Source: Vitis vinifera
Lineage: Eukaryota; Streptophyta; Magnoliopsida; Vitales; Vitaceae
DNA length: 64,000 bases
Reading direction: 5' to 3'
NCBI RefSeq assembly: GCF_030704535.1
Contig: NC_081809.1
Coordinates: 1,286,501-1,350,500, forward strand
Shown here: piece after piece, positions 19,821 to 60,905 of the stretch
Layout: the number at the start of each line of letters is the position of its first letter
How positions within the stretch are numbered: position 1 is the first letter of the stretch
Position numbers and translations under genes: made by a program
Notes under the pieces: model-generated
The model's input: the letters and a program-made list of their open reading frames with translations, nothing else
The model's database searches: none
What the model was told of the DNA's origin: nothing

Positions 19821-19908
19821 GTGCCACCTCCCTCATTCTCGTACTTACATTTCGTGTCTATTGTTCTTCAAAACGCGTCGGTTCGATCTCATTTACGAAG
19901 CAGCTGCA

Positions 19909-39541: not shown

Positions 39542-39832
39542 TTAACCATGGCGTTCAGGGTCTTTCACCCTTGGGTGAGCAATATCCGGGAAATATCGGT
39601 GAGAGTCATCGGTACCCTGTTGTCCAGTTTCACCGGTGCTCTCACCATCACTGCTGGCTACTTCCATGTTTCCAGCAATACTGCTTTTAGCATCATAAGC
39701 GCCAAAGGTAGCCTTCTTATTGAGATTCGTATCACTTAAGAGCTGTTTGGCTTCATGCCCTTCCTGCATCGGCTTTCCCAGAGTTAGCAAGATCAACCCC
39801 AAGGTAACGCAGAGAACAAGTACAGTTTTCAT
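39542..39832 (-). CDS. Small secreted peptide precursor P1
   Basis: A 96-residue precursor of the array family. Residues 1-20 are a signal peptide (MKTVLVLCVTLGLILLTL), so it should enter the secretory pathway. The mature part has no cysteine. It holds a central block (AYDAKSSIAGNMEVAS, 45-60), an acidic Ser/Gly linker, and the C-terminal block SHRYFPDIAHPR at 77-88 with the tail VKDPERHG. The 5'-UTR intron runs from the donor GTG|GTAAAC (exon 1 ends 39950) to the acceptor TTTCAG|GTCC (exon 2 starts 39851). The TATA-like run is at about 39994-40004, and the AATAAA signal is at 39314-39309 in a conserved 3' UTR. The Copia element lies 430 bp downstream of the stop. I do not recognise the family; the form is that of post-translationally cleaved signalling peptides. 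Confidence 0.8.
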   Translation of the reverse strand: MKTVLVLCVTLGLILLTLGKPMQEGHEAKQLLSDTNLNKKATFGAYDAKSSIAGNMEVASSDGESTGETGQQGTDDSHRYFPDIAHPRVKDPERHG

Positions 39833-40119
39833 GATCAAACTGTTGTTGGACCTGAAAGACGTAACTGCAGTTGTTACAAAATAAGCTAATATAGAGAAAA
39901 AAAAAGGGAAGAAAACTGAAACTAGGGTTTTATTAGTTGATGAGTTTACCACTCTCCTGCTTTCAGAAATTATGGAAGAATGATTTCCAAGGTTGGATAT
40001 ATACATATACATATACATACATACACGCATAACTTATCTATATATATATATATATTTTCATAACTTAATATCATCAGTGTGTTTGGATTAGTGTTGGCCG
40101 GAGTCATGTGCAGTGAAAG

Positions 40120-40290
40120 GGTTTTGGAGCACTGAGTGCACTAGTGGGGAATATCTCAATGTCCGAGCACCAAGGGATGAGGTCGTGGCCACCAAAGAAG
40201 CAATATTTGGGATGGAGACAGATTCAATGCTGATGTTCAATTGTTCGAATATTAAATTTTGGTCACTATTTCCCCTTCTAGCTAGGGTCC
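40120..40290 (-). promoter_or_regulatory. Conserved upstream block of P1
   Basis: About 300 bp upstream of the P1 ATG. It contains gagcactgagtgca.tagtgggg…atctcaatgt…agcaccaagg and gtggccaccaaagaagcaat, words shared with the P2, P3, P4 and P7 promoters. Further up is 'ttcaattgttcgaatattaaa.tttggtc', also shared. Confidence 0.65.
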
Positions 40291-40384
40291 CCCATGAATT
40301 AGTGCCATGCATTAATAAAATTACTTTCGAGTTTAAAACATCTCGATAACGGTAATCCATCACAGCTCGGTGAATATCAATCTT

Positions 40385-40615
40385 TCTATCACAAAACTAA
40401 GGGTGCTTTTGAAATTTTTTTATTTGAAGTATTTTTAAGAAAATCACCCATCATTTGTTTTTTCTTTTATAAAAAATAATATTAAAAGTAACTTTTTAAT
40501 TTTTTTAAAATATTTTTAAATTTTATCAAATGCTTATTTTTCTTTAAAACCATTTTTTATATTATAAATGTTTTTTTTTAAAATATTATCAAACAAACTC
40601 TAAGTATAATAATAT
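40385..40615. mobile_element. MITE-like remnant
   Basis: AT-rich, from 'aagggtgcttttgaaattt' to 'aaacaaactctaag', with weak inverted ends. Low support; no other feature is seen between the P1 promoter and module M copy 3. Confidence 0.3.
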
Positions 40616-41204
40616 TGTTAATTCTCATTAATTAAATTAAACATTTTTTTTTCTCTAAATACCATACATCAAAAAAATTGTTTCATATTTAATAAAAGTC
40701 CTTAAATAATACGAATATTACTCTTTGAGATAATGACTTAATTTCAACTTCAATTTTTAGTCAAAACCAAAGGGAAAAAGGTTATTTCAAACAAGGCCAA
40801 ACTAATACACTTCAGTTCAGTCTTTAGCTAGAACTCTTTGTGTGTGCATTTAAGAGGTCAATTAGTTGTAGATTGGCTCTTATCTCGGTTGAACCATGGT
40901 TGTTCTCAATCACACTTCGTTATAAGCACTTTTTACATCAACTTTTCTTTTAGATTTCCATCTTTTTTTTTTCCAACGCGGAGACAAGCACAGAATAATT
41001 CCCAGGTTTAATTAGAAGTGCTTTGACAAATTTAAGTTGAAGCATGCACAGTCTCATCCTAGTGATACACAGCAAAAGAAATCCAACAATTTTCCAACAG
41101 GAAAAGAAATAATAAACTTCCCTCATTACTTTGTTATAGGAGTAATAATTGCAATCATATTAACATAGTGGACTATCAAAGAAATCATATTAATATAGTC
41201 ACTA

Positions 41205-41485
41205 CCATTAATCCAAGATTTTCAATCCAACCCATGATTGCCATGGACAGTGAATATCCCTTCCCAGTACTTTAAAGATAGAATTCAAACATGATGGCTG
41301 TCAATGTTTTGATTCAGTTTTTCCAAAGGTTACTGTTCCCCACTCATATGCTGGTACCACTGGGGCAGTGTCATGGCTTCTATACTTGCACTTTGTTCCA
41401 CATCTTTATCCATATATGTATATTGAGTACTGTGAATGTCCCCCACTCATTTTCCAACAAGTAATATATGAATATCTTCTAGATA
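41205..41485. repeat. Module M, copy 3
   Basis: Contains 'caacccatgattgccatgga', 'gttccccactcatatgctgg', 'cagtgtcatggcttctatac', 'tgtgaatgtcccccactcat' and 'ccaacaagtaat'. It lies between the promoter of P1 and the 3' end of P2. Confidence 0.7.
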
Positions 41486-42424
41486 TCAAGTTGTGGGTTA
41501 TGAACTACAAGAGGATGAGCCTGCTTGTTGCAAGTATAATTTGTATAAATATCCTATCTTCAGCTTTAATTTGGGATTTTCCTTCTTTATTTCTTTCCTT
41601 TTTTTTTTTTGGGTATTTATCATTGATGCTTTTGGGAAAATAATTAGGAGTTTGGGAGTGATCATTGAAATTGAGATAGACCCTATTAATTAATTTCACC
41701 AAAGGGAAAAAATGATATATATTCTTGATCATTTTGTGGCATTAGACTAGGGTTATGTTTGATTCGAAAATGCGGGAAAAAGTGAAGGAAAATAAAACAA
41801 AATTTAGATTTATTTTAAATCCATTTTACTTATTTAACTCTTTTATATAAAGACTAAATAATTTAAAATTATATAAGTTAGTTATTAATTTTAACTATAT
41901 TAATTTGACTTTTTTTTCTTCTACTTTTTACAATAAAATCAAATATGAGAAAATTATTTTTTAAAATATTTTTTCTTTAATATTTATCGGGAATCAAATA
42001 TAACTAATAGTTCAAACGTAAAAAATGAAGAGACTTTCTTTTAGGGAAAAGAACTTCTTGAATTTTACCATGACTAAAAATTGTGGATTATGCCCAAGAA
42101 CTTCAATTGATTTAGTTGCATCAATATATGGTTTATACCAGTACTGAAGAAGATTCATTAACACATGAAGCATATATCAAAAAAATATATACATAAACAA
42201 GCACACACCATATCCATGGTAGCCATGGTTTTTATTTAAGATGATATTTCATAACACAAAAGCGTAATACTCGACAAGCCGAAACCCGTCATACACCAGA
42301 GCTGATCACCTTATGCAATTTTGTGATACCAAACATGGGCCTTTTCGGCTACTTACATGTCGGTTCCACAACATTATTATTACTATCATAGATGAGCTTC
42401 ATCCTGATTCATCATCTTCTTATC

Positions 42425-42709
42425 TTAGCCTCGGCGGCCTGGGTTAGATTTTTCTGGTTGGTTTCCTCTAGGGTTAGTTAGTTCCGGGAAAACTCGGTGA
42501 CTATCTGCATCTTCAGATCCATTGGAGGACTCACCATCCCCGCTGCTGGCTACTTGATTGTCCATGGTTCCAGCAATGGTTTTAAAATGATCATTAGCGC
42601 CAACACCCACCTTCTTATACGTTTCCTCCAAAGTAACCCTTCCTGCATCAGCTTTCAGGGTTACCAAGAAAAACCCTAAGGCAGCGCAGAGGACAAGTAG
42701 CGTCTTCAT
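42425..42709 (-). CDS. Small secreted peptide precursor P2
   Basis: A 94-residue precursor. The signal peptide is MKTLLVLCAALGFFLVTLKADA, with cleavage likely after ADA. Then GRVTLEETY, the central block VGVGANDHFKTIAGTMDN (34-51), a Ser/Gly/Asp/Glu linker, and the C-terminal block SHRVFPELTNPR (70-81) with the tail GNQPEKSNPGRRG. No cysteine follows the signal peptide. The ATG at 42709 is chosen because upstream codons lie in the 5'-UTR exon and intron: donor CTG|GTAAAC (exon 1 ends 42846), acceptor TTTCAG|GTTCAG (exon 2 starts 42736). The TATA box TATAAATA is at about 42917-42910, and AATAAA at 42236-42231. It differs from P3 by a 12-nt in-frame deletion (the DLNR residues) and several substitutions. 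Family and receptor are unknown. Confidence 0.82.
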   Translation of the reverse strand: MKTLLVLCAALGFFLVTLKADAGRVTLEETYKKVGVGANDHFKTIAGTMDNQVASSGDGESSNGSEDADSHRVFPELTNPRGNQPEKSNPGRRG

Positions 42710-42974
42710 GATCAAGCTGATAATCAATTGCTGAACCTGAAAGAAGCAGCTACAGATGTCACAAAATTTTGTCACATGCAAATGATCTAAAACAAGCAAA
42801 GGAAAAATGGAATGAAACTAGGGTTTTGTTAGTTGAAGAGTTTACCAGTCTCCTGATTTGAGAAACTTGCTTTGAAGAGATATACAAGAGAGATTTTTCA
42901 AGGTTGAGTATTTATAAGGGAGTCTCATAACTATCATCTGGATTGTTAGGGTGGGGGGTAGCATAAAAATGTTT

Positions 42975-43060
42975 GAGCACTAAGTGCAGTAGTGGGTTCG
43001 ATCTCAATGTAATAAGCACCAAGGAAGATGTTGTGGGCACCAAAGAAGCAATTGTGATAA
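42975..43060 (-). promoter_or_regulatory. Conserved upstream block of P2
   Basis: gagcactaagtgcagtagtg, then ctcaatgt.ataagcaccaag, then gtgggcaccaaagaagcaat. It lies 60 bp upstream of the TATA box and is nearly identical in P3. Confidence 0.65.
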
Positions 43061-44067
43061 AGATTGATGATTAAGCTATTATTTACATTTTAGGGTTCAC
43101 TAATGGATGACGAAGCATGGAAGCTATTGTTTTCTAGTACATCTAGCAATCATATTTCTCAAGAGATATATCTTATATATTTATTTATTTATTTCTATTA
43201 ATAATCAATTTTAATCTTGTATTTCCTCAACCTTGGAAATTAAGATTGGCATTTTACCAATCATAAAAAGAAAAATATAAGAACTTAAGACTTGTTTGAA
43301 GGATTAATTTAAGGTTTGTTTGGATTTTTATTTTATATTTTTAAAATAAAAACTAGTAATGACTTTTATATAAGATATAAAAACTCTTAAAAATCTTTTT
43401 TTTTTTATAAAAAAAATTAGAAAATAGCAACGACTTTCAATATTTACTATCCTAAATTATAAATTTTTTTAAAGACAAAGTTATGTTCATTATGGAGCCA
43501 AAAATGTAAGGCACAGAGACAAAATAGAAAAAATTGGTTTTAGGGGTAATGTCATATAAATAAGTAAATTTTTTTCCCTTTAACTTAATAAGAATTTAGT
43601 TTTTTAGGAGGGACACTTGCCTCCTTTGGGCATGTGATAGCTCTGCCATTAGTTATATCATCATGGCTTTAACTTTATTTTTGGTTTTGATTCAACCCTA
43701 GAGTCAAAAGCAAAGAGCTATTTCAAACAAGACGGAATTAAAATTTATGTGCATGCATACAAGAAAGAGGCTTGTTAATTGTAAATAATTGGCTCATTCA
43801 TACGTGAAAGCCATGCATGCATACTTGTCCAAAATAAGCAATAAATACCATACTATTGATGGTCACTCATTAATCCTCATAAAAAGTTCATCATTTTACA
43901 TGTGTTAATATCTCTAGCCGTCATAGCTCATCATAAGCATAATGTTACATTAATTTTTTTTTTTTACTTTTTTTTATCCAGGTATTTTTCTTTCCATTAA
44001 AACATATGTCAAGACATATAAAATTGTATTTTGACAAATTTAATGAAGTTCAATTACTGTCATGCCT

Positions 44068-44232
44068 GTTGGGACGTCATTTTTTCTGAGTATATTTACT
44101 CAGATGGTACCAGGAGGGCAACGTCCTAAGCCTTAAGGCCTAAGGTCTCAAGTTCGAATCCTGGGGAGGCCACTCTGTGATGCCCCTGACTGGCACAGAG
44201 CCAAATATACTAAAAACAAATGACATCCCAAC
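44068..44232. mobile_element. MITE with tRNA-like core, absent from the sister unit
   Basis: 165 bp bounded by inverted ends GTTGGGACGTCATTTTT (left) and, reversed from the right, GTTGGGATGTCATTTG. The interior has a B-box-like GTTCGAATCC and an A-box-like 'tactcagatggtacc', as in tRNA-derived sequences, followed by 'ggggaggccac'. The matching place in unit B (about 47945) runs straight through ('cacacctaagcaacatg'), which proves it is an insertion in one copy. A short ATGCC-type flank may be the target duplication. Confidence 0.65.
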
Positions 44233-44964
44233 AATGCCCAAGCAACATGTAGAAATAACACAAACCTTTCGATTCTCCAAAATGAAAGGAAATAACTTCC
44301 TTTATGTATTTATTTCTTACGGGAGAAGAAGGCATATGCATCCTAGCCAAGAAGCCGGGCTTTTGTAAGTGAATACATCAAATGATGGCAATCATATTAA
44401 TTTTTTTCTTCTTTTCTATGGTGCTTGTTCCCCACTCATATGCAGGTAGTACGGAGGACGTATAACTCCTTATAATTTGCAACTTTTATTGACAAATTTT
44501 TTTATGAGATGTTACATTTTTATATAAAAATTTTAAATTTTAGAAAGAAAAAAAATTGTATCCAAACATGTACTTAATAAAATATTTCTATTTTAATAAT
44601 CATAACTCGAACTTATCACCATCGACTTTGATACTAATTATTAAATTGGGTTTTTGACTGATTTCATCTAAAAATCAATTATTGTTCAATAACGATAAGT
44701 CAGATTAAGTTTGTTTTAAGAATTATCATTTGGTTGACTCATCCTAGAGCTCAAAAACGACATTATTATGCTATAACAATATGTATATATGCATTAATTT
44801 CATGTAATGACAGTTTCATAATAAGCATAATGTTACAATAAATTTTTATTTTTATTTATTTTTATCTAGGCCTTTTTCTTACCATTGATTAAAACAAACA
44901 AAAAGGAAAAAACTTCCCTTATTACTGTAATTAAGGCAATGCATCAAACAGTGGCAATCATATT

Positions 44965-45240
44965 AATATATCTAGTCAGTAATTGCCATCAACATTGAAC
45001 ATCAAGTTTAAAAATAGAATTCAAATATGACGGCTCACATTTTTCTTTAGGTTTTTTTTTTTCCTAACTTTTCTAAGGTTAATGTTCCCCACCCATATGC
45101 TGGTGTATAGTACTGTGGAAGCGTCATGCCTTAATATATTTTGATATTTGTTCCTCGTCTTTTTCCATGTAGTACTGTGAGTGTTTCCCACTATTAATGC
45201 TTCAATAAGTAATGGCTTCAATGCCATATTCTCCGATATT

Positions 45241-45250
<10 letters not shown>
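44965..45250. repeat. Module M, copy 4
   Basis: Has 'gttccccacccatatgctgg', 'tgtggaagcgtcatgcctta', 'tttgttcctcgtctttttcc', 'gagtgtttcccactattaat' and 'gccatattctccgatatttga', ending in a long (TA)n run (45241-45275). Confidence 0.75.
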
Positions 45251-45279
<29 letters not shown>

Positions 45280-46301
45280 GTTGGAGTCCATGTAATGATT
45301 AATGGTGAAAAAAAAATAGAAAAACGAGAAAGAAGAACATGAAGATATAACGTGATTCGACTAATTGCCTACGTCAACGGGAACATGGAAAGAGGATATT
45401 CACTATGTCAAAATTAAGATTACATAAAATAGTATTTATATTAACCCTTAGAATGAAATTCCAAAAAATAACCCTAAACCATACTGTGGGGCGTTGCCCC
45501 CCACAGCCCCCAACCTATCATTTGCCCCACTTCACTATGCTCTCGTTCCACTCTACTTTGCTCCCGCATTTTGCCCATTCTTTTTCATATGTCTTTTCAC
45601 TCAAATAAACCACATACTGCAACATATACACATAAAAAAAAAGTTGTACTTTGATTTTTTTACTCTTGATTCAAGCTAACGAGGCATGAGATTAATGAAG
45701 CTAAAGAGCTGAAATCTTCCTTAACTGGCTATACCTTCTATGAGTTTCATCTGATTTCTCCGTTGATTTGTTTCCTCTTACGATTCATTTCTCCAAGTTG
45801 GAAAAAGCAATGAAGAAACTTTCTTTATAGTGAAAGGAAAAGGTGCCATGGAAACAAGCTAACTTCTAGTTGAAACGGGCAAAAATGAAGAGACTTTCTT
45901 CTAGGGAAAAGAACTTCCTGAATTTTACCATGACTAAAAATTGTGGATTATGCCCAAGAACTTCAATTGATTTGGTTGCATCAATATATGGTTTATACCA
46001 GTACTGAAGAAGATTCATTAACAGATGAAGCATATATAAAAAAAACATATACATAAACAAGCACACACCATATCCATGGTAGCCATGGTTTTTATTTAAG
46101 ATGATATTTCATAACACAAAAGCGTAATACTCGACAAGCCGAAACCCGTCATACACCAGATAGTAAGCATGGGACAGAGCTGATCACCTTATGCAATTTT
46201 GTGATACCAAACATGGCCTTTTCGGCTACTTACATGTCGGTTCCGCAACATTATTATTACTATCATAGATAAGCTTCATCCTGATCCATCATCTTCTTAT
46301 C

Positions 46302-46598
46302 TTAGCCTCGGCGGCCTGGGTTAGATTTTTCTGGTTGGTTTCCGCTAGGGTTAGTTAATTCCGGGAAAACTCGGTGACTAGCTGAATCTTCAGATCCATT
46401 GGAGGAGTCGCTATCCGCGTTGCTGGCTACTTTATTGTCCATGGTTCCAGCAATGGTTTTAAAATGATCATTAGCGCCAACACCCACCTTCCTATTGAGA
46501 TCCTTATACGTTTCCTCCAAAGTAACCCTTCCTGCATCAGCTTTCAGGGTTACCAAGAAAAACCCTAAGGCAGCGCAGAGGACAAGTAGCGTCTTCAT
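46302..46598 (-). CDS. Small secreted peptide precursor P3
   Basis: A 98-residue precursor. The signal peptide is identical to that of P2. The central block VGVGANDHFKTIAGTMDN is at 38-55 and the C-terminal block SHRVFPELTNPS at 74-85, with the tail GNQPEKSNPGRRG. It keeps DLNR at 33-36, as P1 and P7 keep similar LN residues, so the shorter P2 is derived. The 5'-UTR intron is only about 80 nt (exon 1 ends 46709, exon 2 starts 46625) because 26 nt near the acceptor are missing compared with P2; the TTCTTTCAG acceptor is kept. The TATA box is at about 46780-46773 and AATAAA at 46096-46091. Confidence 0.82.
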   Translation of the reverse strand: MKTLLVLCAALGFFLVTLKADAGRVTLEETYKDLNRKVGVGANDHFKTIAGTMDNKVASNADSDSSNGSEDSASHRVFPELTNPSGNQPEKSNPGRRG

Positions 46599-46833
46599 GA
46601 TCAAGCTGTTAATCAATTACTGAACCTGAAAGAAGTACATGCAAATGATCTAAAACAAGCAAAGGAAAAATGGAATGAAACTAGGGTTTTGTTAGTTGAA
46701 GAGTTTACCAGTCTCCTGATTTGAGAAACTTGCTTTGAAGAGATATACAAGAGAGATTTTCCAAGATTGAGTATTTATAAGGGAGTCTCATAACTATCAT
46801 CTGGATTGTTAGGGTGGGGGGTAGCATAAAAAT

Positions 46834-46925
46834 GTTTGAGCACTAAGTGCAGTAGTGGGTTCGATCTCAATGTAATAAGCACCAAGGAAGATGTTGTGGG
46901 CACCAAAGAAGCAATTGTGATAAAG
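46834..46925 (-). promoter_or_regulatory. Conserved upstream block of P3
   Basis: Same words as P2 in the same spacing (gagcactaagtgcagtagtg … gtgggcaccaaagaagcaat). Confidence 0.65.
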
Positions 46926-48614
46926 ATTGATGATTAAGCTATTATTTACATTTTAGGGTTCACTAATGGATGACGAAGCACGGAAGCTAGAGTTTTCTAG
47001 TACATCTAGCAATCATATTTCTCAAGAGATATATCTTATATATTTTATTTATTTATTTCTATTAATAATAAATTTCAATCTTGTATTTCCTCAACCTTGG
47101 AAATTAAGATTGGCATTTTACCAATCATAAAAAGAAAAAAAGGAAAATATAAGAACTTAAACTTGTTTGAAGGATTAATTTAGGGTTTGTTTGGATTTTT
47201 ATTTTATATTTTTAAAATAACAACACTTTTATATAAGATATAAAAACTCTTAAAACTTTTTTTTTTAAATTAGAAAATAGCGATGATTTTCAATTTTTAC
47301 TATCCTAAATTATAAATTTTTTTAAAGACAAAGTTATATCCATTGGCGAAGCCAGAAACGTGAGGCACGGACAAAATAGAAAAAATTGGTTTTAGAGAGA
47401 AATGTCATAAAAAAAGTAAATTTGACTTAATTGTTAAAGTCTTTTTTTCCCCTTTTAAGTTAATAAAAATTAGTTTTTTAGGAGGGACACTTGCCTCCTT
47501 TGAGCATGTACGTGCTACCTCTGCCATTAGTTATATCATCATGGCTTTAACTTTATTTTTGGTTTTGATTCAACCCTAGAGTCAAAAGCAAAGAGCTATT
47601 TCAAACAAGACGGAATTAAAATTTATGTGCATGCATACAAGAAAGAGGCTTGTTAATTGTAAATAATTGGCTCATTCATACGTGAAAACCATGCATGCAT
47701 ACTTGTCCAAATAAGCAACAAATACCTTACTATCGATGGTCACTTATTAATCCTCACAAAAAGTTCATCATTTTACATATGTGTATTAATCTCTAGCGCT
47801 CATAGCTCATCATAAGCATAATATTACATTATTATTTTTTTTTTTACTTTTTTTTATCCAGACATTTTTCTTTCCATTAAAACATATGTCAAGAGATATA
47901 AAATTGTTTTTTTGACAAATTTAATGAAGTTCAGTTACCGTCACACCTAAGCAACATGTAGAAATAACACAAACATATGTATTTATTTCTTACGAGAGAA
48001 GAAGGCATATGCATGCTAGCCAAGAAGATGGGCTTTTGTAAGTGAAGACATCAAATGATGGCAATCATATTAATTTTTTTTCTTCTTTTCTACGGTGCTT
48101 GTTCCCCACTCATATCCAGGTAGTAGGGAGGACGTATAACTCCTTATAATTTGCAACTTTTATAGACAATTTTTTTACAAGATGTTATATTTTTATATAA
48201 AAATTTTAATTTAAAAAAAAAAAATGTATCCAAACATGTACTTAACAAAATATTTCTATTTTAATAATTATAACTCGAACTTATTACCATTGACTTTGAT
48301 ATTAATAATTGAATCGAGTTTTTGACTGATCTCATTTAAAAATCAATTATTGTTCAATGAAGATAAGTCAGATTAAGTTTATTTTAAGAATTATTATTTG
48401 GGTGACTCATCCCGGAGCTCAAAAACGACATTATTATGTTATAACAATATGTATATATGCATTAATCTCATGTAATGACAGTTTCATAATAAGCATAACG
48501 TTACAATAATTTTTTTTTTATATTTTTTTACCATTGATTAAAACAAACAAAAAGGAAAAAACTTCCCTTATTACTATAATTAAGGTAATGCATCAGTGGC
48601 AATCATATTAATAT

Positions 48615-48935
48615 ATCTAGTAGTCAGTACTGTTACTCCAGGAATTAACTTCAAGCCCACCCGTAATTGCCATCAACATTGAACATCAAGTTTAAAAATA
48701 GAATTCAAATATGACGGCTCACATTTTTCTTTAGGTTTTTTTCCCCTAACTTTTCTAAGGTTAATGTTCCCCACCCGTATGCTGGTGTATGGTACTGTGG
48801 AAGCGTCATGCCTTAATATAATTTGACATTTGTTCCTCATCTTTTTCCATGTAGTACTGTGAGTGTTTCCCACCATTAATGCTTCAATAAGTAATGGCTT
48901 CAATGCCATATTCTCCGATATTTGATATATATATA
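48615..48935. repeat. Module M, copy 5
   Basis: The fullest copy: 'caagcccacccgtaattgcc' on the left, 'gttccccacccgtatgctgg', 'tgtggaagcgtcatgcctta', 'gagtgtttcccaccattaat' and 'ccatattctccgatatttga', followed by (TA)n. Reverse-strand ORFs in copies 4 and 5 look alike only because the DNA is duplicated; copies 1-3 do not keep them. Confidence 0.75.
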
Positions 48936-49530
48936 TATATATACGGTTGGAATCTGTACAACAATTAATGACGAAAAAAAATAGAAATATAAGAAAGAAA
49001 ACATAAAGATTTAGTGTGGTTTTGTTAATTGCTTATGTCTATAGAAACAAGGAAAGAGGATATTCACTGTGTTAAAATTAAGATTACATAAAAAGGTATT
49101 TATACTAACCTTTAAAAATGAAATTCCAAAAATTACCTATGAACCGTACCGCAAGGAGCATTGCCCCTCACACCCCCCAACCTATCATTTGCCCCACTTT
49201 GCTACACTCTCGTTCCACTCTGCTTTGCTCCGACATTTTGCCCATTTTTCTTCATATATCTTTTCGTTCAAATATGAGCCACATAATACAACATATACAC
49301 ATAAAAAAAAGTTGTACTTTGATTTTTTTACTCTTGATTCAAGCTAATGAGCCATGAGATTAGTGAAGCTAAAGAGCTAAAATCTTTCTTAACTGGCTAT
49401 ACCTTCTATGAGTTTTGTGTGACTTCTCCGTTGATTTGTTTCCTCTTATGATTCATTTCTCCAAGTAAGAAAAAGCAATGAAGAAACTTTCTTTCTAGTG
49501 AAAGGAAAAGGTGCCATGGAAACAAGCTAA

Positions 49531-50290
49531 TTGCTAACTTGTGATCCATAGTTAATGAATCATACCAGATGTTGATATATGTAAAAATATATATGAAGCT
49601 GCCTCTGGCTTTCCAATTTCAAATGATTATGCATATGTAGACTAATTAACTAATAATGCCATTAGGTATCTATCGGCGTGCAATTTGAATGGATTGATCC
49701 AACCCAACTTGACACCTAATCTGATGATCGAATAGATTTGGATAATCATTTCAACGTCAAATCCGATTTAATATTTTAATAATATCCTATAATGTATATC
49801 ATATATCATACACTTTTTCATTTTTCTAAAAGGGAATATAAATTTATTTTTACTTTTTTTTAATTACTATCTAGGTATAGATTTGTAAAAAACATTATAG
49901 GTGGATTTTGAATCATTCCATCCGATCAATTCGACTAACTCGAGCTTATGAAAATGAGGTTGAATCATGTTTAAACTGAGTAATACAAGTTTGAGATTAG
50001 GTTAGGTTAGATTTAAATTGATTATTCCTTAATTTATGTTAGATTTAGGTTAACCATCAACTTGACCAACTCACCTAAATTTCAATAATACGTGGTTAGA
50101 TTCTTAGCATGATTATGGTTCTCTGCAAAAAGGGTAGACTGAATTTTAATACAATTATAAGTTGTGGATTATGCCAAGAAAGGTCAATTGATTTTCTTGC
50201 ATAGTTGTTTAATTTCAATCTGCAAAATGGAAATTTTGTAAAACAGCTATGAGAACAAATGTAGTCATCCATCCCTTCATAGAGATTAAC
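49531..50290. other. Spacer downstream of P4
   Basis: No gene seen. From about 50105 to 50215 it shares with the other units the 3'-flank words 'gattatg', 'tgtggattatgcc.aaga' and 'tcaattgatt.t.ttgcat'. Confidence 0.45.
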
Positions 50291-50865: not shown

Positions 50866-51139
50866 CAAGCTGTCAATTGCTGAACCTGAAAGAAGCAACT
50901 GCAGTTGTTTCAAAATTTTGCTACTTAAAAATCTTAACAAACAAACAAGCAAACGAAGGAAAAATGAACTGAAACTAAAACTAGGGTTTTGTAAGTTAGA
51001 TGAGTTTACCACCCTCCTGTTTTGAGAAACTTTCTTGAAGAGCTATGAAAGAGAGATGTCCAAGTTTGGCCATATATATAAGTGAGTCTCATAACTATTG
51101 CTTGTGTGTGTTTTGACTACTGGCCTGGGGTATACCATA

Positions 51140-51340
51140 TAAAATGGCACTAAGAGCCGTAGTGGGGAATCTCAATATTGTATTAGCACCATGGGAAGAG
51201 GTTTGGGGCCACCAAAGAAGAAATTGGGACGAAGACTCATAATCAGGGCATTTTCAGTGGGGATGTTCAAATACTTAATCATTAAACTTTGGTCCCGTTA
51301 GTTCTGTTTCTAGGGTTTATTCATGGATGACGCTGCATTA
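51140..51340 (-). promoter_or_regulatory. Conserved upstream block of P4
   Basis: ggcactaagagccgtagtgggg, aatctcaat, tagcaccatgg and ggggccaccaaagaagaaat, then further up 'aatcattaaactttggtccc' and 'ctagggtttattcatggatgacgc' in two pieces, all with counterparts at the other members. Confidence 0.6.
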
Positions 51341-51690
51341 AAGCTAATAATTGCTCACCTGAAATAATTGCACTGCATTACCATGCTTGGTGAGCTGGGC
51401 AGTAGCTATCAAAGTTACAATAAGAAGATATCCACGATATCCAGGGTTATATTATTCCAAGATTAATGAAATAAGCAATTGTTTAATAGATAATTAAGTA
51501 TCTGAAATAATTAAGTATATATATATATGCTACAACGATCTATTCATGACATCGTCGGATTTCTTTTGTCAAGCTTTGATAAAACTATATGTTTGTAGTC
51601 ATTAATTATTATCTTTGCCAAGTTGACATTTTCTATGAACATGGTAAGTTATTAACTTATGGCGCAAATTAAGTACAACAATTTCATGAC

Positions 51691-51975
51691 TAAGGCGGTG
51701 TTTGTTTTTTTACTTAATTCTAAATAAAACCTTAATGCTTAATAATGTTAAATATTAAGTTGTTTGTTTTTATAGTATTTTATTTCTATTAAGTATTAAA
51801 AAGTAAAAAAAACCAATACGTTATTTTTTCTATGTAGAAAAAGCTACATATTTTGACTTTTTCTATTTAGTAAAAAGTTTATAATAAGTCATGAAAAAGT
51901 AGAAAAATAAACAACCTAAATTTTAAAACTAAATTGCTTTCAGCAAAAAGCCAAAAAAACAAACACCACCTAAGT
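51691..51975. mobile_element. MITE with GGTGTTTGTTTTTTT ends
   Basis: Inverted ends: left GCGGTGTTTGTTTTTTTAC, right reversed GTGGTGTTTGTTTTTTTGGC, with CTAAG on both sides as a possible target duplication. About 280 bp, AT-rich and non-coding. Confidence 0.6.
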
Positions 51976-52619
51976 TTAATTAATTACAAATGATAGTACA
52001 TAATAAGTAGCTAATATGTGATCATTAGAAAAAATTCTAGATTAGTTCTCCAAAAAAAAAGACTAACGTCAAATCATTTTCAGACATGTGGATTTTCTAA
52101 GCATGCCACGGTTGGTCCTTGCTACACAATACATCAATAGTAATAACGTCATTATAATATTGATTATAGTTAATATTACTCCAAAATTAAATTTCAAGTT
52201 GATTAAGTAATGATTAACGTTGGCCATGAAGCTGAAATATATTTAGTTCAAATTTGCTCCTCTCAATTTTTTTTATTTATTCCCAAAAGTGATTGTTCCC
52301 ACTAATTTGATTTGGTCTAGCACTATGGAAAAATAATGATTGCCAATACCCTTTTTTTTTGCATTAATTTAGTTCATTATCTTTGACCCGTATCCTCTAA
52401 AATCTTGCCCGGTGTTCCAAGGTATCATTTCAAGAGGAAATTAGTTCTAAGATCTGATCTTCAGCTCTAATCAATATGATGAATATGAAAGTTTAAAAAT
52501 GTAATTGCTGTCGCATGCTTTAATTTCTAATTAAATAAATTAGCCTAATGAGAAGTTGACATTGAACCCATGCACATTTTTTTAGTGGGTCCATAACATA
52601 GATGTTAGTGTCACATACA

Positions 52620-53170
52620 TTCCGTAGATACTTGATAAATCAATTTAACAACTTAATATTATTTAATGACTGAATTTAAGTTATTAAATATATTAAGTAT
52701 GTTGGGTAAAATAACTTAATACCATAATTTAAAAGTAAAAAAATAATTTTAAGTATTAAGTCAAAATAATTAACTCATTTTTAATCTCAAAATTCTTTTA
52801 CCTCATTTATCATATTAAGTGAAAATATATTTTACAAGTATGATTTTACAATCATAACTTAATTTTATAATAAATATTTTTAGAGTTAGTTTATGTTTCC
52901 ATAATATTTTGAATATAAATGTTTAACAAATAACACATCAGTTTACTGCTTTAAATTAATAAAAATATAAATATTAGTTAAAATTAATGAGAGTAAGAGT
53001 AAATAGAGCCATTTGATGATTTAAGATAAAATTTAAGTTAATTTTATTAAAAATCTTAATACTTAAAAGTAAAAAATAAATAATAAGTTTTAAGTTAACA
53101 ACTTAAAAATAATTTAACTTAAAGTCAATTTAAGTCATTAATTAATAAATATTAAATTTTACCAAACATC
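52620..53170. mobile_element. MITE-like element related to that at 33711-34160
   Basis: Shares 'aagtat.ttgggtaaaataacttaata', 'aattttaagtattaag', 'aatttaactt' and the right end 'taaatattaaatttaccaaac' in short blocks with the earlier copy. The ends are eroded. Confidence 0.45.
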
Positions 53171-53450
53171 GAAACTTAATTTTGCATTGTAAACTTTTTC
53201 AAATAAGCAAGGTTTTAAATTTCTCTACTGGGTTATTAGATTATTACTTGCAAGTAAAAATCAGAAAAAAAGATTAAGAAGATGATATGGGACAATATGA
53301 TAAGAGCGACAACATGATATTCATCATCTCGGTATTTGGGTGATATGTGACAACATGATAAGAGTGAGAGAGTGGCTTGTCAAGTTGCTGACATGTGGAT
53401 GATTAATTTCCTAATTTAGATTAGTGGGATGTGTTGAAACAAAATAGTGA

Positions 53451-53650
53451 GAGCACTAGGAAAGGGCCCTCGGAAATAAGTCAAATAACGATATGTGTTG
53501 TCACCAAACAAGCATATTTCAAAGGAGCGCATTTTCATTTCCTTCAATAATTCAACCTATCTTGGTGATCAATGTTTCCATATTGGGGTTCAAAATGAGA
53601 GACGCAGCAATAAAAACCAATATGGTTTCTCACCTGAACTAAATATGTAG
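53451..53650 (-). promoter_or_regulatory. Orphan promoter block of a lost peptide gene
   Basis: Matches the upstream block of the peptide genes (gagcactagg…ggaaataagtc…tgtcaccaaacaagca, 'tttccatattggggttcaaaatgagagacgc' in pieces, 'agcaataaa…tctcacctga'), but no peptide-coding sequence, TATA promoter or 3' UTR lies on its left side. It marks a deleted array member. Confidence 0.5.
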
Positions 53651-54123
53651 ACTGCAGTTCTAATCATTAATTATTACATTTATTGGCCTCCATTGACAAA
53701 ATTGCGTCTGGTTACAATTACTAACCATGATTGATCTTTGCCAAGGTTTTATGCAGTTGTAGGGTTATATCAAGCTTCAAAACCAAGTAATTTTATGGGC
53801 AAAGGACATGAAAAGGTTGGCCAACCATTATTTATACATTTCCATAAAATAAATATTATTAAAATCTTACAAAATTAAGAGTCTGTTTAATAATGATTTT
53901 ATTTTTAAAAAAAATGTTTTTAATATTTCAAATGTTAGAAAAACTAAAAATGTATTTTAGAATAACTATCAAATAAGTTCTAATCATAATAAATTATGTC
54001 AAAACATGAACAAGTAACTAGCATATTGCTAAGTCTGAACTACACCAAAGAACAAAAATCTTTAACAAAGAGATGGACGCTTATTTAAAATTCATAAGAT
54101 AATTGAATAAACTTTGGTGAGTA

Positions 54124-54498
54124 CAGTGTGTAGGACATCAGACGCTACCAACTCTCCTAAAAGCAATTGCTTATAGGAAATGCGCATACCCTACCCTTAT
54201 AGTGCATTCACCCAAGTGCCCACGGCGAACACAAGGGGAGTCACAAGGGGAGTTGATGGACGCGGCCAACCCTCCGATCTGCCAACAATCTTCCCCCCAG
54301 CGACACCCCTGGGGTTCGAACCCGTGACCTCGACTCTGATACCACTTGTAGGACCTCAGGCGCTACCAACTCTCCTAAAAACAATTGCTTGTAGAAAATG
54401 CGCATACCCTACCCTTATAATGCATTCATCCAAGCGTCCATGGCGAACACAAGGGGAGTTGATGGACGCGGCCAACCCTCCGATCTGCCAACACAGTG
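54124..54498 (-). mobile_element. TRIM element, complete, with 5-bp target duplication
   Basis: A 365-bp miniature LTR element (54129-54493) flanked by CAGTG (54124-54128 and 54494-54498). Two direct terminal repeats of 159 bp (54129-54287) and 147 bp (54347-54493) begin and end TG…CA. The internal part is only about 59 bp: on the minus strand a primer-binding site TGGTATCAGAG follows the 54347-side LTR, then a GGGTTCGAACCCC stretch, then a purine tract GGGGGGAAGA. No coding capacity, as usual for TRIMs, which are mobilised by other elements. The LTRs differ at several places and by a 12-bp repeat, so it is not recent. Confidence 0.85.
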
Positions 54499-54499
54499 C

Positions 54500-55240
54500 A
54501 ATCAAACAATTAATTTTAGCACTTGAGGCAATAGTGAAGAATGAGTAAGATTGGTTTTAGTTCATTTTAAAATCTTTAGATATAAGACTCCTAATTAAAG
54601 ACTATGAATAATAAAAAATAATTGAATCAATGTTGAGTAAGTACTTTAGCTTTCAAGAAAAATTGAGCTCTATTGAAATGATCACCAAAACAAAATTTGA
54701 ACAACTTCAACATCACCAAATATCACAAACACAACCTCTAAGTGTAATTTTGTGACTTTGATTTATTATAAAGTTAGAGCAAATTGACCATGTTTTGGTT
54801 AGTTAGGTATGATGAATGGTAAAATTTGAATCAATTTTATTGCATGTACTATACCAAAAATACGAGGGGTTGAGCTATGTTAATAGGGTAGGCCTATTTT
54901 TTGAAGTAAGAATTATGTCTTCAAAACATTACAAACAAAAATTTAAACTTGAGCTTGCAAGAAAAACTGAGCTCATTTGAGACTATCACCAAAGCAAAAT
55001 TTGAACAAATTCAATTACCTAACATTACAAATACAACCCCCAAGTGTGATTTTATAATTTTGATATATATGAAGAACCATGCATTCCACAATTATAATAA
55101 AGTTAAAGCAAATTAATGATGCTCCAACTAGTAAGTTTTATTATTGTGTTATGCAAATGATGACGAGAGTTGAGCTATGATAACATGATAGGCATGTTTG
55201 TTGAAGTAAGAATTGTGTCTTCGTGTAATTATGTCAGAGG
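54500..55240. other. Spacer
   Basis: Contains two loosely similar 300-bp tracts (about 54640-54920 and 54945-55225; shared words 'agaaaaa.tgagct', 'atcaccaaa.caaaatttgaac', 'gttgagctat', 'ttgaagtaagaatt'), an old tandem duplication without coding content. Confidence 0.5.
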
Positions 55241-55244
55241 TCAA

Positions 55245-55535
55245 CTCTTGTATTCAACTCACTTTGTCATATGTCAACTCCACTATTCAACTCATCTCAT
55301 GATTCACGCGGGTGAGCAGGCGCAAATCCGCAATCGTAGTTGATTAGTCAAACCCTTTGATTTGCCTCTTCTTGATGTGATTATTTTAGGCTAATTCCCA
55401 CTCATGTGCTGATAGAACTGTGGTGTCCTGGCTCCAAGTACTTATCCTTGCACTTCGTTTCTCGTCCATAACCATTGTGTGAGTTGATGTTTCCCACTAA
55501 TGTTCCAATAAGAGTTACCGTTTCAATAAAGAGAT
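55245..55535. repeat. Module M, copy 6 (degenerate)
   Basis: 'actcatctcatgattcac', 'aattcccactcatgtgctga', 'gtggtgtcctggctcc', 'ttgcacttcgtttctcgtcc', 'tgatgtttcccactaatgtt' and 'ccaataag' keep the order of the better copies. Confidence 0.55.
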
Positions 55536-55834
55536 TTCAAGGCTCATTTGATGCATTTTATGGTATAGTTCTGATTTATGAACAATTTACAGAACACTTC
55601 ATAATTATAATCTCTGCATTCTTTCTGGCCTTAGGAAGGACAAAAAAAATTGATGTTTTCCATGTATAGGGAGCCGTCATTCTGGATTGTAGAAACTAGA
55701 GATAGGCTCTAGTTCGTAGAGGAAAAGAAATATAATCTTAAATTTTCCCCATTCAAACTGGTATGGCATGATATTGAGTGTTCAAGCTAAAAAAACTGAA
55801 GAGACTTTCTTTTAAGTGAAAAGAAAAGGTTCCT

Positions 55835-56130
55835 TGCCTGCCTTGTTATCCAGAAGAGACTGTCCATCGTCCAGGGCCTTCTTTGCCACTTTAAGGGGGG
55901 AGGGGGTGAAGTGGGATTTACCTAAAACCAAGGAAAAGCGGTCCATCATTAATCTCAGCATTCTTATCATTTGGTAGATCCAACTCTCCATGGCCTATTT
56001 CGTGTTCACTCCCAGCTCTAACAAGCACCTGGAAATGTGTGATAAAGGCCTCTGAGGGAATTGCTGTTTCAGTTGGTCCCCTGGTTGGCATGCGGTGACC
56101 TGCTCCCGCCGTAGGAGCAGCTCCAGCGGT
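55835..56130 (-). pseudogene. Unidentified exon-like gene fragment
   Basis: On the minus strand a GC-richer stretch reads openly for about 55 codons (56090 to 55921): TETAIPSEAFITHFQVLV, then RAGSEHEIGHGELDLP, ending LFLGFR before a GTAAAT donor-like site. A second open stretch follows (about 55899-55838: KVAKKALDDGQSLLDNK). No start codon, no flanking exons and no family that I recognise. It could be a captured host exon or the remains of a gene; base composition differs sharply from the AT-rich spacer. Confidence 0.3.
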
Positions 56131-56199
56131 CTACCAACAGTCGACGAGTTTGGGATTGGGCTTCGTGCCTAGGCCTCAATGTCAAATCAGTTTTTTGAG

Positions 56200-57190
56200 A
56201 TTACAAATCCATAATATGAAGAAAAAGGAAGATATATTTAATTTACTTTTACTCAAGTCTTGCTTTGTTATCCCAGGCTGATGCATCGCTGGTGTAGACT
56301 TGCTTTGAACACTCTAATTTCATTGGAGGCACTACCCATCTGATTAAGGCCAAGAGCACATTATTGGTAGAAGGGATGTGGCAACCAGTGATGTGTGCTA
56401 TGAAACAACCCTGTCATGACTCGTATCACGATCTATGTCAAGATACGTGTTGTATATCATGGTCGATCGATGCAAACAAATTTCTAATAATTTTTTTTGA
56501 TAATTTTTTTAATTACGTTATTTTAGAATAGATTTTAAATTTTCTAAGTTATTTTTTAATATAATTTTCTTAGTAATAACTTCTCCTTCCTCTAAATGAT
56601 AATGTTTAGTAGACTTCTTGTAACGTCATAGAAGATGAACCACCCACATCACCGCAAATCTAAACACTTCATCGAACCATTCAATTGGTAAGAGCGGCAG
56701 GAGGTACAACTCACAAGTCAATGCCATGAGCACATAGGTGCTGTGGCACATCAGGATGATGCACTCTGCATTCCACGATCGTGGCGAAGATGTCTCTACA
56801 AGCATAACAACAGCCCAGGCTTAGGCCGCCACCTTAAACTTGTTCACTTAGCTTTGCCATATATGGTATACATTGAAATGGAGCTAATTATTCCCTTGGA
56901 CTAAGTTAATTTGTATGTGTGAATGTAAATGTGTGGTTGAAGCTTTCATAACCATTTCGAATCACGTAGGAATTTTGACCTTCCTGGTCAGCTGAGATTC
57001 TACATTACTTGGATTATCCATTCTAGCTAATTAACAGTACTGTTGTCAGCAAACTGTGATTATGGTTCTTTGGGCAAAAAGTGAACTGGATTTGATCTAC
57101 TATGTATTTTTGGAGTAAAAGTTCATAAACATCACAGATTATTCTGACTTTTAACTGATTTGGTTGCATCAAAACTTTTCACCCATGGAA
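56200..57190. other. Spacer, possibly with further gene fragments
   Basis: 56270-56420 and 56630-56830 are GC-richer than the surroundings. In plus frame 56279-56330 reads LMHRWCRLALNTLISLEALP without support on either side. Nothing identifiable. Confidence 0.3.
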
Positions 57191-57199
57191 TAAAATGCA

Positions 57200-58040
57200 T
57201 TTTTATGATCCGAACCCGTTGTGCCCAACGTTTTTATGTAAGGTAGTAGTGAGAAGCGAGAACATAAAGCATAGTACGTAGCTGAGGTACAAACCAGAAG
57301 ACGGCCGTCAGAAAAGAGAGTAATCACAGCATAGAACTAATACTTCATGTTACTGAGAAGCCAAACTTGTGCCGTAGGTACTCTTCTGTCTACTTACACG
57401 TTGGTTCCACATTATTACAACGGACAGTACTCATGTTTTCAACATATATAAGGATCCATCCTCTTACAAACTTAGCCACGGTGGCATCACTGGTTTCTCC
57501 ATGCATGGTCACGGCCCTTACCATTTGCTTGTCCATATGAACATGGGTTCTCTTCACCATCACTGCTGGATTTTACCGTCCATGTTTACTTGAACATCAT
57601 TACCAGTTCAGCACCGAGTGATCCAACCTTCAGGTTGAGATTTGTATCAGCTACAGGAGTCTATTGATTATTGACTTTACGCCCTTCCACCAAAGGGGTT
57701 TCCTGCATCACTCTTCATCAGAGGTAACAAGATTAGTTGAAGTGTAAAGCCTAAATCAGTTTTATTATGTCAAATAAGGGATGTTGTGGGTCGAGCTCCT
57801 ATAGTACCCCTTATGATTTAGGGTTTCATGGGAGAGAAAAAAGGAAATGTATGCAGTGGTTTGATTAATGGATTCTTGAGTTTTGGTGCTGTTGGACATA
57901 GGAATCACATTGATTGTCAAATCAATGTTAAAGCCTCAGTCTTTCTTTATTTCTGTTGGTTAAGTTAACAAGATCAACCCGAATATAAGGCAGAATACAA
58001 GTGCCGTCTTCATGATCAAACTGTTGCTGAACCTGAAAGA
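57200..58040 (-). pseudogene. Ruined peptide gene (psi-P5)
   Basis: The 5' piece (58040-57960) keeps the acceptor TTTCAG|GTTCAG, the ATG at 58013 and a signal peptide MKTALVFCLIFGLILLT followed directly by a stop (57962-57960). About 190 bp of unrelated sequence (57770-57959) follows, then the rest of the gene body (about 57770-57440) with P1-like words (cctgcatcactc…, 'gagatttgtatcagcta', 'ccatcactgctgg', 'tccatgtttac') broken by stops and shifts, and the conserved 3' UTR ('cttacacgttggttccacattatta' in two words). It most resembles P1. The HR.F block cannot be read. Confidence 0.65.
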
Positions 58041-58089
58041 AGCAACTGAAGTTGTTACAAATAATCAATTTATAAGAGAATTGAGATAA

Positions 58090-58450
58090 CATACTTACAA
58101 GCCAGAAATCCATCACACCAAAGATGGTACACACTGCATACAACTGATACTCCATGCCACTTTGTAAAACCAAACATATGGCTGCCACATACTTCTGCAA
58201 CTTACATGTTGGTTCCACATTACTATACTAGCACTTCATTCACATACTAAACTCCATCCCCTTACAAATTAACTTAGCGCCCATGGCTTGGTCGATTGGG
58301 TTGCCTCAGGAAAAATTCATTGAGTAGCGTGTGCTGATGATCCAGATCCATTGGGGTTTTCAGTGCTGCTATTCAACTATTTCATAATTAATCATTGAGG
58401 GTGTTCATTTCAGGGTTCAGCAAGGACAATACTGCAATCTTTAAAATGAA
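58090..58450 (-). pseudogene. Second ruined peptide gene (psi-P6)
   Basis: It has the 3' UTR ('ttgtaaaaccaaacatatgg', 'ttacatgttggttccacatt') and a C-terminal coding part (58375-58250) reading …NGSGSSAHA then a stop and IFPE, the counterpart of NGSEDADSHRVFPE in P2. The signal peptide and central block are missing; the coding relic joins directly to promoter-type sequence ('ttcataattaatcattgag…tttcagggttc…tactgcaat', 58376-58440). A deletion therefore removed the front half. Confidence 0.6.
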
Positions 58451-58589
58451 TAATATCTAATTGTGACGACTAGATATTTTTTCAAATAACAAATATGAAA
58501 GATTATATTGGGAAACAACAATATCTAACAAAAATGATTAGATTTGGAAAAATTTCTTTAGAATATTTAACAAGAGGTGGTGTGTAACG

Positions 58590-58945
58590 ATTTGCTCTTA
58601 ATCATGTAGATATTGTCCCCTTTGGGTCCAAAGTAGACAATATTTACATAGTTGGGAGCGGGTTGTTATAAATGGTATTAGAGCCGATCTCCGACCTCGG
58701 TGTGGGGGTTTGTTTGGCCCCGTAGTGGTGTTCGTCTATTTGATCCCGCAATCCCATGGAACATAACGACGACGTTGTGTCTGCATGGGGGGTGTTTGTA
58801 ATATCTTACATCGAATAAGGGGAAAAGTTTCTGATGCTATACAAGTATGAACTTTTCTTAATCCTGTAAATGCGTTTTAAAATCGTGAGGGCTCATTTGG
58901 GTCTAAAGTGGATAATATTTACACGATTGGGGACGGGTCGTTACA
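58590..58945 (+). mobile_element. TRIM element with incomplete left end
   Basis: The right LTR is 58797-58945 (TGTAATATC … GTCGTTACA). The left LTR survives only as its last ~85 bp (about 58590-58672, sharing 'tttgggtc.aaagt.gacaat' and 'gggagcgggttgtta'). The primer-binding site TGGTATTAGAGCC follows at about 58674, and a G-run tract (ATGGGGGGTG) precedes the right LTR. The internal part is 120 bp and non-coding. It is a different family from the TRIM at 54.1 kb. Confidence 0.75.
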
Positions 58946-58949
58946 TAGT

Positions 58950-59440
58950 TGTTAGGAAGTGTCCCAAATTCCTAATTAGTATAGATTCCTTTTTTGTAAA
59001 GAATATTATATAGAATATTTCTAGGTTGATATATTATTGTAATATTAGATTTCCTTATAGAATAAGGAAGGTTGTTGGAAATATCTCTATAAATATTCTA
59101 GGTCATGAGGGGAAAAAGTTATGAGATGGAGATGGGCCTATAGAGACTATACGAGGTGGATAGAGATGTGAGGAAGAACGGGAGGTACCTGGTGGAGCGA
59201 GAGGGCTCGTAGTAAGGTATGGATACAAGGAGTGGGGAAACATGGGATGTTTCGGGAACCCAATAGTTGTATCTAGTTTTATCCTCTGTAATATTCTCTA
59301 TTGTATAGTGGAATTATTCTCTCTCATCCGTGGACGTAGGCATGGTTGGCCGAACCACGTTAAAACCTCGTGTACCGTATGTGTGATTGTTTTATCTTTG
59401 TGTTCTTAAACTAACATTGTTGGCATCAAAGCTTTCGTTG
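58950..59440 (+). mobile_element. LTR remnant (Copia-like)
   Basis: A 467-bp LTR at 58950-59416 with perfect short inverted ends TGTTAG/CTAACA. Near its right end is 'ggacgtaggcatggttggccgaaccacgtt' in two overlapping words, typical of plant Copia LTRs. It is followed by TTGGCATCAAAGC, a diverged primer-binding site. No coding region follows, so only one end of the element is left. It abuts the TRIM with 4 bp between them. Confidence 0.75.
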
Positions 59441-60400
59441 GCACTACAATAGTATGCATGCACTTCTCTGTAGTCCCTATGGTCACGCCTTGCTGCGGTC
59501 TCTTTTGGTTGCACCCATATCCTATGGTCGCACTAAATCTTCCTTTTAGCCGAGGTTGGTGGCTGTGACCAAAAACCCCCCTTCTTGTGGTGAATGGAGC
59601 TAATTTAAAGGTTTTGGTTTAGCCATTCAGGCTATTAAGGTCCAACTCAAACTGAATTGGGTTTGATCTTTTTAGTACATGTAGGGTCGATGTACTGACA
59701 TGGAATAATCAATATATATTCCAACAGATTTTGATCCAATTATTTCAATATGTTAAATACAATTTTGAGTCTTCTAATCACCAAGCTACATCCAACATTA
59801 GACACTAAACATATGGGTCTAGTCTCTTAAATTAGCATTAATCAACCTAAAGTTGCTAGGTAGGGAACCAACAATGTATATCAAACTTATTCAGGCTGCA
59901 ACCCTAGCATATACCAATCGACCACAGTTTGCGGTTTGATAAACGTTTGTCTTATCACATTTTTCACAAATAATTTTAATTAGTACTCATCTTGTCTAGC
60001 AAAATTTCCTCACCAATGTTTTTGTTTGGCGATCGAACCTTCTAAAATCATTTCGTAGTCTAAAAATTGCCTGCTCAAGCTCCGAGATCCATCTGACTAG
60101 CTATCCCATATATCATGTCAACTTTCAGCTGGTGAACTGTGATTTTCTTTGTTAAATTAAGACAACTACTTGATTGAACTTACCATCTAGGGTTTAGGTA
60201 TGTATCTTTATTGAACATGTTCTATATTGCCTACAGGAAATTCAATTAGTTTGGTTGCTCCATGTTTTCACCCTCCAAATGAATTAATGCTTCAAATTCT
60301 TGCATGTACGTACAAGCAATAACATGAAAATTCCAACATATTCAGCAATTCACACGCATGCAGTCGATCCCATACACACATACGTATAATGTAAACAAGC
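59441..60400. other. Spacer downstream of P7
   Basis: No gene seen. 60120-60280 shares the array 3'-flank words ('gtgaactgtgattttctttg', 'attcaattagtttggttgc'). The first 200 bp may be internal sequence of the broken LTR element. Confidence 0.4.
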
Positions 60401-60623
60401 ACCCACCAATATATACTAGCCAAAGGTTTTTATTTAAGACATAGAGATAACAAAGCATATATAGCATACTTGATGCTTAAAAACCAGACACCAGGCCATC
60501 AGCAAGACAAGAAACACACAGCATAGGACTAATACTTAAGACCTTACATCATTTTTCTTTTCCTTTTTTTCACCCCCTTTTTGGGGTGACTTACAAGTTG
60601 GTTTCAGTTCTATTGTAGGACAC

Positions 60624-60905
60624 TCAGTGGCTGCCGTCCCCAGGTCGGCCCTTATCTGTAAAGTATCGGTGACTTGTGTCCGTGGATGACCCCTGCCCAT
60701 CCTCTTCACCATCGCCGCCGGCTACCTCATTGTCCATGTTTCCAGTAAGACCAACATCATTAGCACCAACATTAACTTTCCGGCCAAGATTTGAATCACG
60801 TAATACACGACTCACTTTAAGCCCTTCCCCCAACGTGACCGCCTCAGCTTGGAGAGTGAGCAAGATCAACCCAAAGGCAATGCAGAATACAAGTACAGTC
60901 TTCAT
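60624..60905 (-). CDS. Small secreted peptide precursor P7
   Basis: A 93-residue precursor and the most diverged intact member. Signal peptide MKTVLVFCIAFGLILLTLQAEA. Propeptide with LKVSRVLRDSNLGRK (compare P1 KQLLSDTNLNKK), central block VNVGANDVGLTGNMDN (44-59), an acidic Gly/Asp/Glu linker, and the C-terminal block SHRYFTDKGRP (78-88) with the tail GDGSH ending the protein. The Pro after HR.F found in the others is Thr here. 5'-UTR intron: exon 1 ends 61067 (AGTG|GTATTC), exon 2 starts 60930 (ATTCAG|ATTCAAC). TATA TATATATA at about 61143-61133, AATAAA at 60434-60429. Selection on the frame is suggested because the blocks persist although the rest has diverged. Confidence 0.8.
   Translation of the reverse strand: MKTVLVFCIAFGLILLTLQAEAVTLGEGLKVSRVLRDSNLGRKVNVGANDVGLTGNMDNEVAGGDGEEDGQGSSTDTSHRYFTDKGRPGDGSH

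Follow-up and report, generated by a model that had tools for sequence, protein, structure and literature searches.

A 64,000-nucleotide stretch of grape (Vitis vinifera) DNA, here called the window (C5:1286501-1350500), carries an array of small minus-strand genes, P1, P2, P3, P4 and P7. We think that their products are the precursors of a secreted plant signalling peptide that lacks cysteine and belongs to an unnamed family, a reading to which we assign a probability of roughly 0.6. Chromosomes are written C5, C14 and so on, with numbers read off the contig numbers. Many chalcone/stilbene-synthase-type matches cluster at C16:21.02-21.53 Mb and C10:23.67-23.76 Mb, in keeping with the stilbene synthase clusters of grape.

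We favor a signalling peptide because the frames are intact, their N-termini are of signal type, their insertions and deletions (indels) preserve the frame, and the ratio of nonsynonymous to synonymous substitution rates (omega) is below 1 overall and lower in the C-terminal part. The reading also draws on an intron in the 5' untranslated region (UTR) near the ATG of all five copies and of a sixth gene on C14, on sequence matches to that gene, and on a collinear block linking C14 and C5. In the mechanism we propose, an N-terminal signal peptide would route the precursor into the secretory pathway, and the acidic, Ser-rich middle would serve as a disordered pro-part. Apoplastic proteases would then release a C-terminal peptide starting near [ST]-H-[RH]-x-[FY]-[PT]-[DE] and continuing into prolines, which a cell-surface receptor would read. 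The C-terminal part is the likely candidate for the mature peptide, since this motif is common to the array copies and the C14 protein, while the more N-terminal of two proposed conserved blocks (block 1) is unrecognisable in the latter.

Genes, precursors and flanking signals

The sequence-only reading of this window had proposed five intact minus-strand genes. All five frames, of 93-98 codons, are present:

39542..39832, minus strand: P1 coding exon, 96 amino acids (aa), with the poorest signal-cleavage site among the five
42425..42709, minus strand: P2 coding exon, 94 aa
46302..46598, minus strand: P3 coding exon, 98 aa, a recent duplicate of P2
50575..50865, minus strand: P4 coding exon, 96 aa, closest of the array copies to the C14 gene
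60624..60905, minus strand: P7 coding exon, 93 aa

P2 and P3 belong to a duplicated unit some 3.9 kb long. Similarity between its pieces is 92-99% in the longest repeat families, with 74% in one family and 87% in another, and the coding sequences of the two genes are separated by 2 synonymous and 8 nonsynonymous changes. Intact frames and the duplicated unit bear out the idea of an array of real, mostly intact genes with tandem duplication.

Signal peptides were called from hydropathy and a check of the -3/-1 site, not with SignalP. All six proteins (five array copies and C14) begin with a hydrophobic stretch, and an AxA/AxG-type -3/-1 site is present in five of them; P1 has TLG only. Hydropathy gives no second hydrophobic segment in any of the six, and none has a cysteine after residue 25. 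The array proteins thus agree with the description first given of them, as secreted-type precursors of 93-98 residues with a cysteine-free mature part, in all five copies, four of which have the AxA/AxG site. A small precursor with a signal-type N-terminus and a constrained C-terminal part is what is expected of a plant secreted signalling peptide. An AlphaFold model of P2 (mean predicted local distance difference test score, pLDDT, 54.3; predicted template modelling score, pTM, 0.18) has an N-terminal helix only and is mostly unstructured beyond it, which, with five sequences, is weak evidence in the same direction.

A direct-acting secreted product, such as an antimicrobial or cell-wall peptide, would also begin with a secretion-type N-terminus, and rapidly changing tandem copies that arise and are lost, as in this array, are usual for defence peptides. 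We nonetheless regard such a product as unlikely in place of a receptor ligand, given a mature part that lacks cysteine and has more acidic than basic residues in five of the six proteins (P4 has 10 of each), unlike most plant antimicrobial peptides, which are cationic. An immune or stress role for the signalling peptide is a guess, with which fast evolution and the birth and death of copies fit without demonstrating it.

Each array gene has a GT..AG 5'-UTR intron of 83-136 nt, 19-27 nt ahead of the ATG, as inferred from splice-site sequence. A TATA-like box and an AATAAA downstream of the frame are likewise found in all five, and the copies have in common a promoter block of the type AATTGCTTCTTTGGTGGCC, about 300-355 bp above the ATG.

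39852..39949, minus strand: P1 5'-UTR intron, 98 nt, inferred from splice-site sequence; ends 19 nt before the ATG
42737..42845, minus strand: P2 5'-UTR intron, 109 nt
46626..46708, minus strand: P3 5'-UTR intron, 83 nt
50886..51009, minus strand: P4 5'-UTR intron, 124 nt
60931..61066, minus strand: P7 5'-UTR intron, 136 nt
40187..40204, minus strand: P1 copy of the promoter block, ATTGCTTCTTTGGTGGCC
61245..61267, minus strand: P7 promoter stretch, TCATAATTACTTCCATGGTGGCC, identical at 21 of 23 bases to sequence upstream of the C14 gene (L013:1197-1219)

A second promoter element around CACTACTGCACTTAGTGC, which includes an inverted repeat of the form GCAC..GTGC, is partly kept in the five upstream regions (window 39833-61330).

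Constraint and decay in the array

In pairwise comparisons, 40 of 58 indel runs in coding sequence are multiples of three, whereas upstream the figure is 26 of 105 and downstream 26 of 109; the runs are not independent of one another. A neutral simulation with 0.25 substitutions and 0.01 indels per site kept the frame in 479 of 20000 trials, and across five settings the frame was kept in 280 to 4310 of 20000, figures to be read with the knowledge that the intact copies were chosen for being intact. A codon model gives an overall omega of 0.587, with twice the log-likelihood difference (2dlnL) at 8.9 against omega = 1. Together these results uphold the earlier proposal that the frame has persisted, and they show more of this than chance would give.

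Within the codon model, the C-terminal part (25 codon columns) has a grid-best omega of about 0.3 (0.1-0.6 within 1.92 lnL) and a 2dlnL of 8.1, for which kappa was picked from a grid. Block 1 (24 columns) shows no measurable constraint (2dlnL 0.26), and the signal part (23 columns) gives a 2dlnL of 1.0; such tests were run on six codon subsets, and the 2dlnL values are uncorrected for multiple tests. Since the supplied tree served only as a starting tree, the topology comparison is not an independent check. The sequence-only reading had described two conserved blocks and had named an omega near 1 across them as the adverse outcome. Block 2, in the C-terminal part, keeps its standing, as it is constrained in the codon model and extends to the C14 protein. 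Block 1 does not: its omega is near 1, and it has no recognisable counterpart on C14.

Several observations weigh against a signalling peptide. Nei-Gojobori omega for the ten cluster pairs ranges from 0.36 to 1.24, with a bootstrap interval below 1 in only four pairs; the highest value, with a wide interval, belongs to P2-P3. Pooled pN/pS (the same contrast as proportions of differing sites) is flat along the precursor, at 0.60 in the signal, 0.67 in the spacer, 0.72 in block 1, 0.66 in the linker and 0.60 in block 2 (13 columns). With P2-P3 set aside, the remaining nine pairs have coding identities of 61-73%, which do not exceed those of the 330 bp upstream (60-75%) and are just a little above those of the 300 bp downstream (48-69%). 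No conserved dibasic site precedes block 2 in the six proteins and no mature part contains Asp-Tyr, so the precursors bear no known processing or sulfation mark; the length of the C-terminal tail also varies strongly between copies. From all these measures we conclude that protein constraint is real but weak, and that its concentration in block 2 depends on the codon model.

The array region also holds wrecked or promoter-only copies. Remains of two of them account for the claim of at least two ruined genes; the third falls beyond the coordinates of the sequence-only reading and is absent from it:

57223..58061, minus strand: ruined copy 1, with an intron end and signal-peptide start (57963-58061) carrying an early stop
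58089..58458, minus strand: ruined copy 2, a promoter piece (58357-58458) and a 3'-UTR piece (58089-58263), with the coding part nearly lost
About 62380..62630, minus strand: orphan promoter copy (blast match 62429-62616)

After the early stop, ruined copy 1 continues into unrelated sequence and then into the decayed remains of a mature part and of the 3'-UTR (57391-57481 and 57223-57345). No coding part was found next to the orphan promoter. It is very unlikely, in our view, that the array is mostly decaying, leaving the C14 gene, or one or two copies, as all that still matters. These three relics, the poorer cleavage site of P1, the P2-P3 omega and the flat pN/pS all point that way, but the five frames, their conserved splice sites and TATA-like boxes, the frame-preserving indels and an overall omega below 1 speak against it.

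A sixth member on C14 and the age of the family

Genome searches covered 496 Mb in 21 contigs, with P1, P3, P4, P7 and the C14 protein as queries; P2 was left out. P4 found the five array genes and a further gene at C14:852447 (E 0.022), and the reverse search with the C14 protein returned itself and P4 (E 0.034). Queries with P1, P3 and P7 returned the five C5 genes only, up to E 10, and not the C14 gene. The C14 frame encodes 103 aa, MKTAIITV...STHHFYPDEPPRHGHQTLIP, on the same plan as the array genes, and is preceded by a 5'-UTR intron of 99 nt (L013:1382-1480), with 20 nt between the end of the intron and the ATG.

Full-length alignment of the C14 protein with each of the five copies scores above all 2000 of 2000 shuffles. 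For the mature part, the shuffles that reach the observed score number 1 (P1), 21 (P2), 9 (P3), 0 (P4) and 7 (P7) of 2000. P4 and C14 also have a post-signal stretch in common (GRLTLEEVQKA in P4, RRLMLEEVKRA in C14), while block 1 is not recognisable in the alignment. Upstream, the P7 promoter match is equalled by 1 of 394 random C14 stretches; for the other copies the corresponding match was reached by 148 (P1), 76 (P2), 8 (P3) and 272 (P4) of the 394. Comparison of window frames with 200 kb of C14 gave, at E 1e-4, only transposon- or repeat-like matches.

Two neighbours of the C14 gene place it in a block with C5. The first anchor, at C14:827100 (minus strand; labelled bHLH-like by eye, with no Pfam match), has a single further genome match, at C5:1359978 (plus strand), 12.6 kb from P7. 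The second, at C14:812612 (minus strand), matches C5:1434978 (plus strand), C7:4608269 (plus strand) and a copy on C2. Together with the peptide gene, these anchors make three C14/C5 pairs, in inverted order and with all strands flipped. The C2 copy (C2:250828-251175) is 97% similar to its C14 counterpart, far above the other paralogues, and is therefore a recent extra copy.

Three of the five neighbour anchors tried give no support to the block: a gene identified by eye as DUF538-like finds no counterpart on C5 or C7; a PPR gene is uninformative, its paralogues being too numerous; and a calmodulin-like gene has no match on C14. The last, an EF-hand gene at window 19819-20400 (plus strand; Pfam EF-hand_7, E 2.9e-24), has copies 93-94% similar at C5:1.748, 1.819 and 1.835 Mb. 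C7 yielded no third copy of the peptide gene.

Chromosomes 5, 7 and 14 form one of the gamma triplets of grape. From the inverted C14/C5 block with its two anchor pairs, one of them also present on C7, we infer that a single gene predating the core-eudicot gamma triplication gave rise to both the C14 gene and the C5 array. With a sixth member in a collinear block on another chromosome, the family looks old and only the array appears local. The description of the cluster as lineage-specific and duplicating would thus suit the array and not the family as a whole.

These five genes, which seem to encode small secreted precursors of an unnamed family with an older sister gene on another chromosome, may therefore specify an as yet undescribed plant signalling peptide. 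A bolder proposal, which we hold tentatively and with the odds somewhat against it, is a core-eudicot family of peptide hormones, so far undescribed and dating back at least to gamma, whose C-terminal ligand would have the form [ST]-H-[RH]-x-[FY]-P-[DE]...P and which would have expanded into a fast-evolving tandem array on chromosome 5, perhaps of immune phytocytokines. If C14 orthologues span the core eudicots, the family would add a peptide hormone overlooked by motif searches; a single-copy gene of ancestral type could then be contrasted with a locally expanded array, and a receptor hunt and the study of a role in grape disease or development would become practical. If it is restricted to grape relatives, it would be another fast-evolving family of small secreted proteins.

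Elsewhere in the window are retroelements named by eye. A copia-like element with two overlapping frames (35485-38852, plus strand) adjoins P1. A LINE-like element (4683-10513, plus strand) has a long open frame of reverse-transcriptase type, 1216 aa, and a second, broken relative lies at 11321-13615 (plus strand).

Comparison with named peptide families

Searches for a named family agreed with the earlier statement that no known end motif fits. The patterns were self-written and were run on the six mature parts. None of the six matched CEP patterns (conserved prolines and an SPGxGH-type end, as in PMC9739355 and PMC8618561), the PIP/PIPL SGPS..GxGH-type motif, the IDA/IDL SGPS.RHN-type end, the CLE Rx[VL]PxGPxPxH-type 12-mer, or the PSK, PSY and RGF patterns; for CIF, an Asp-Tyr test alone was made (0/6), with no CIF-specific pattern. 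A profile hit to a described peptide family, which the sequence-only reading had suggested looking for, did not appear: Pfam, whose models include PSK, RALF, GASA and other families, gave only sub-cut-off matches for the five array proteins (best Qn_am_d_aIII with P7, E 0.02) and nothing up to E 1 for the C14 protein, and searches of the PDB by phmmer and by profile gave nothing credible. A PDB match at E 1.6, to a sulfhydrylase, we attribute to chance. In a partial literature collection, from which we claim no absence from print, neither motif strings, exact or guessed, nor searches on grape or secreted peptides turned up anything useful; papers reached through the strings dealt, judging by titles and abstracts, with EGFR peptides, the TSH receptor or PTH.

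A strongly diverged branch of a named family, for instance of the CEP/PIP/IDA group, is rather improbable. The Pro- and Gly/His-rich tails, such as the C14 end HFYPDEPPRHGHQTLIP and the P7 end RYFTDKGRPGDGSH, loosely resemble CEP tails such as AFRPTAPGHSPGVGH, tabulated together with nematode IDA examples in PMC8618561, and CEP and PIP motifs are described within the same precursors, with an SGPSSGG motif in a PIP context, in PMC9739355. The CEP, PIP, IDA, PSY, PSK, CLE and RGF patterns are absent from all six mature parts, although motifs this short cannot exclude remote kinship.

As candidate signalling peptides, the grape proteins can be set beside several known systems. The wheat 'DYY' family is reported to begin with Asp-Tyr (PMC9532867), a pair that the grape proteins lack. 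The tyrosine-sulfated peptides (PSK, PSY, RGF/GLV and CIF) also come from small secreted precursors without cysteine; they differ in Asp-Tyr, absent from the grape mature parts. SCOOPs resemble the grape proteins in their small secreted precursors, Ser-rich stretch and conserved C-terminus, but are described as Brassicaceae-specific with a C-terminal SxS motif (PMC8448819), whereas SxS occurs in only three of the six grape proteins (P3, P4 and C14), within or bordering the acidic linker. The PIP/PIPL and CEP precursors differ in their SGPS and SPGxGH cores, found in none of the six, and are alike in overall design: a small secreted precursor without cysteine, a variable middle, and a short conserved C-terminal motif rich in Pro, Gly and His.

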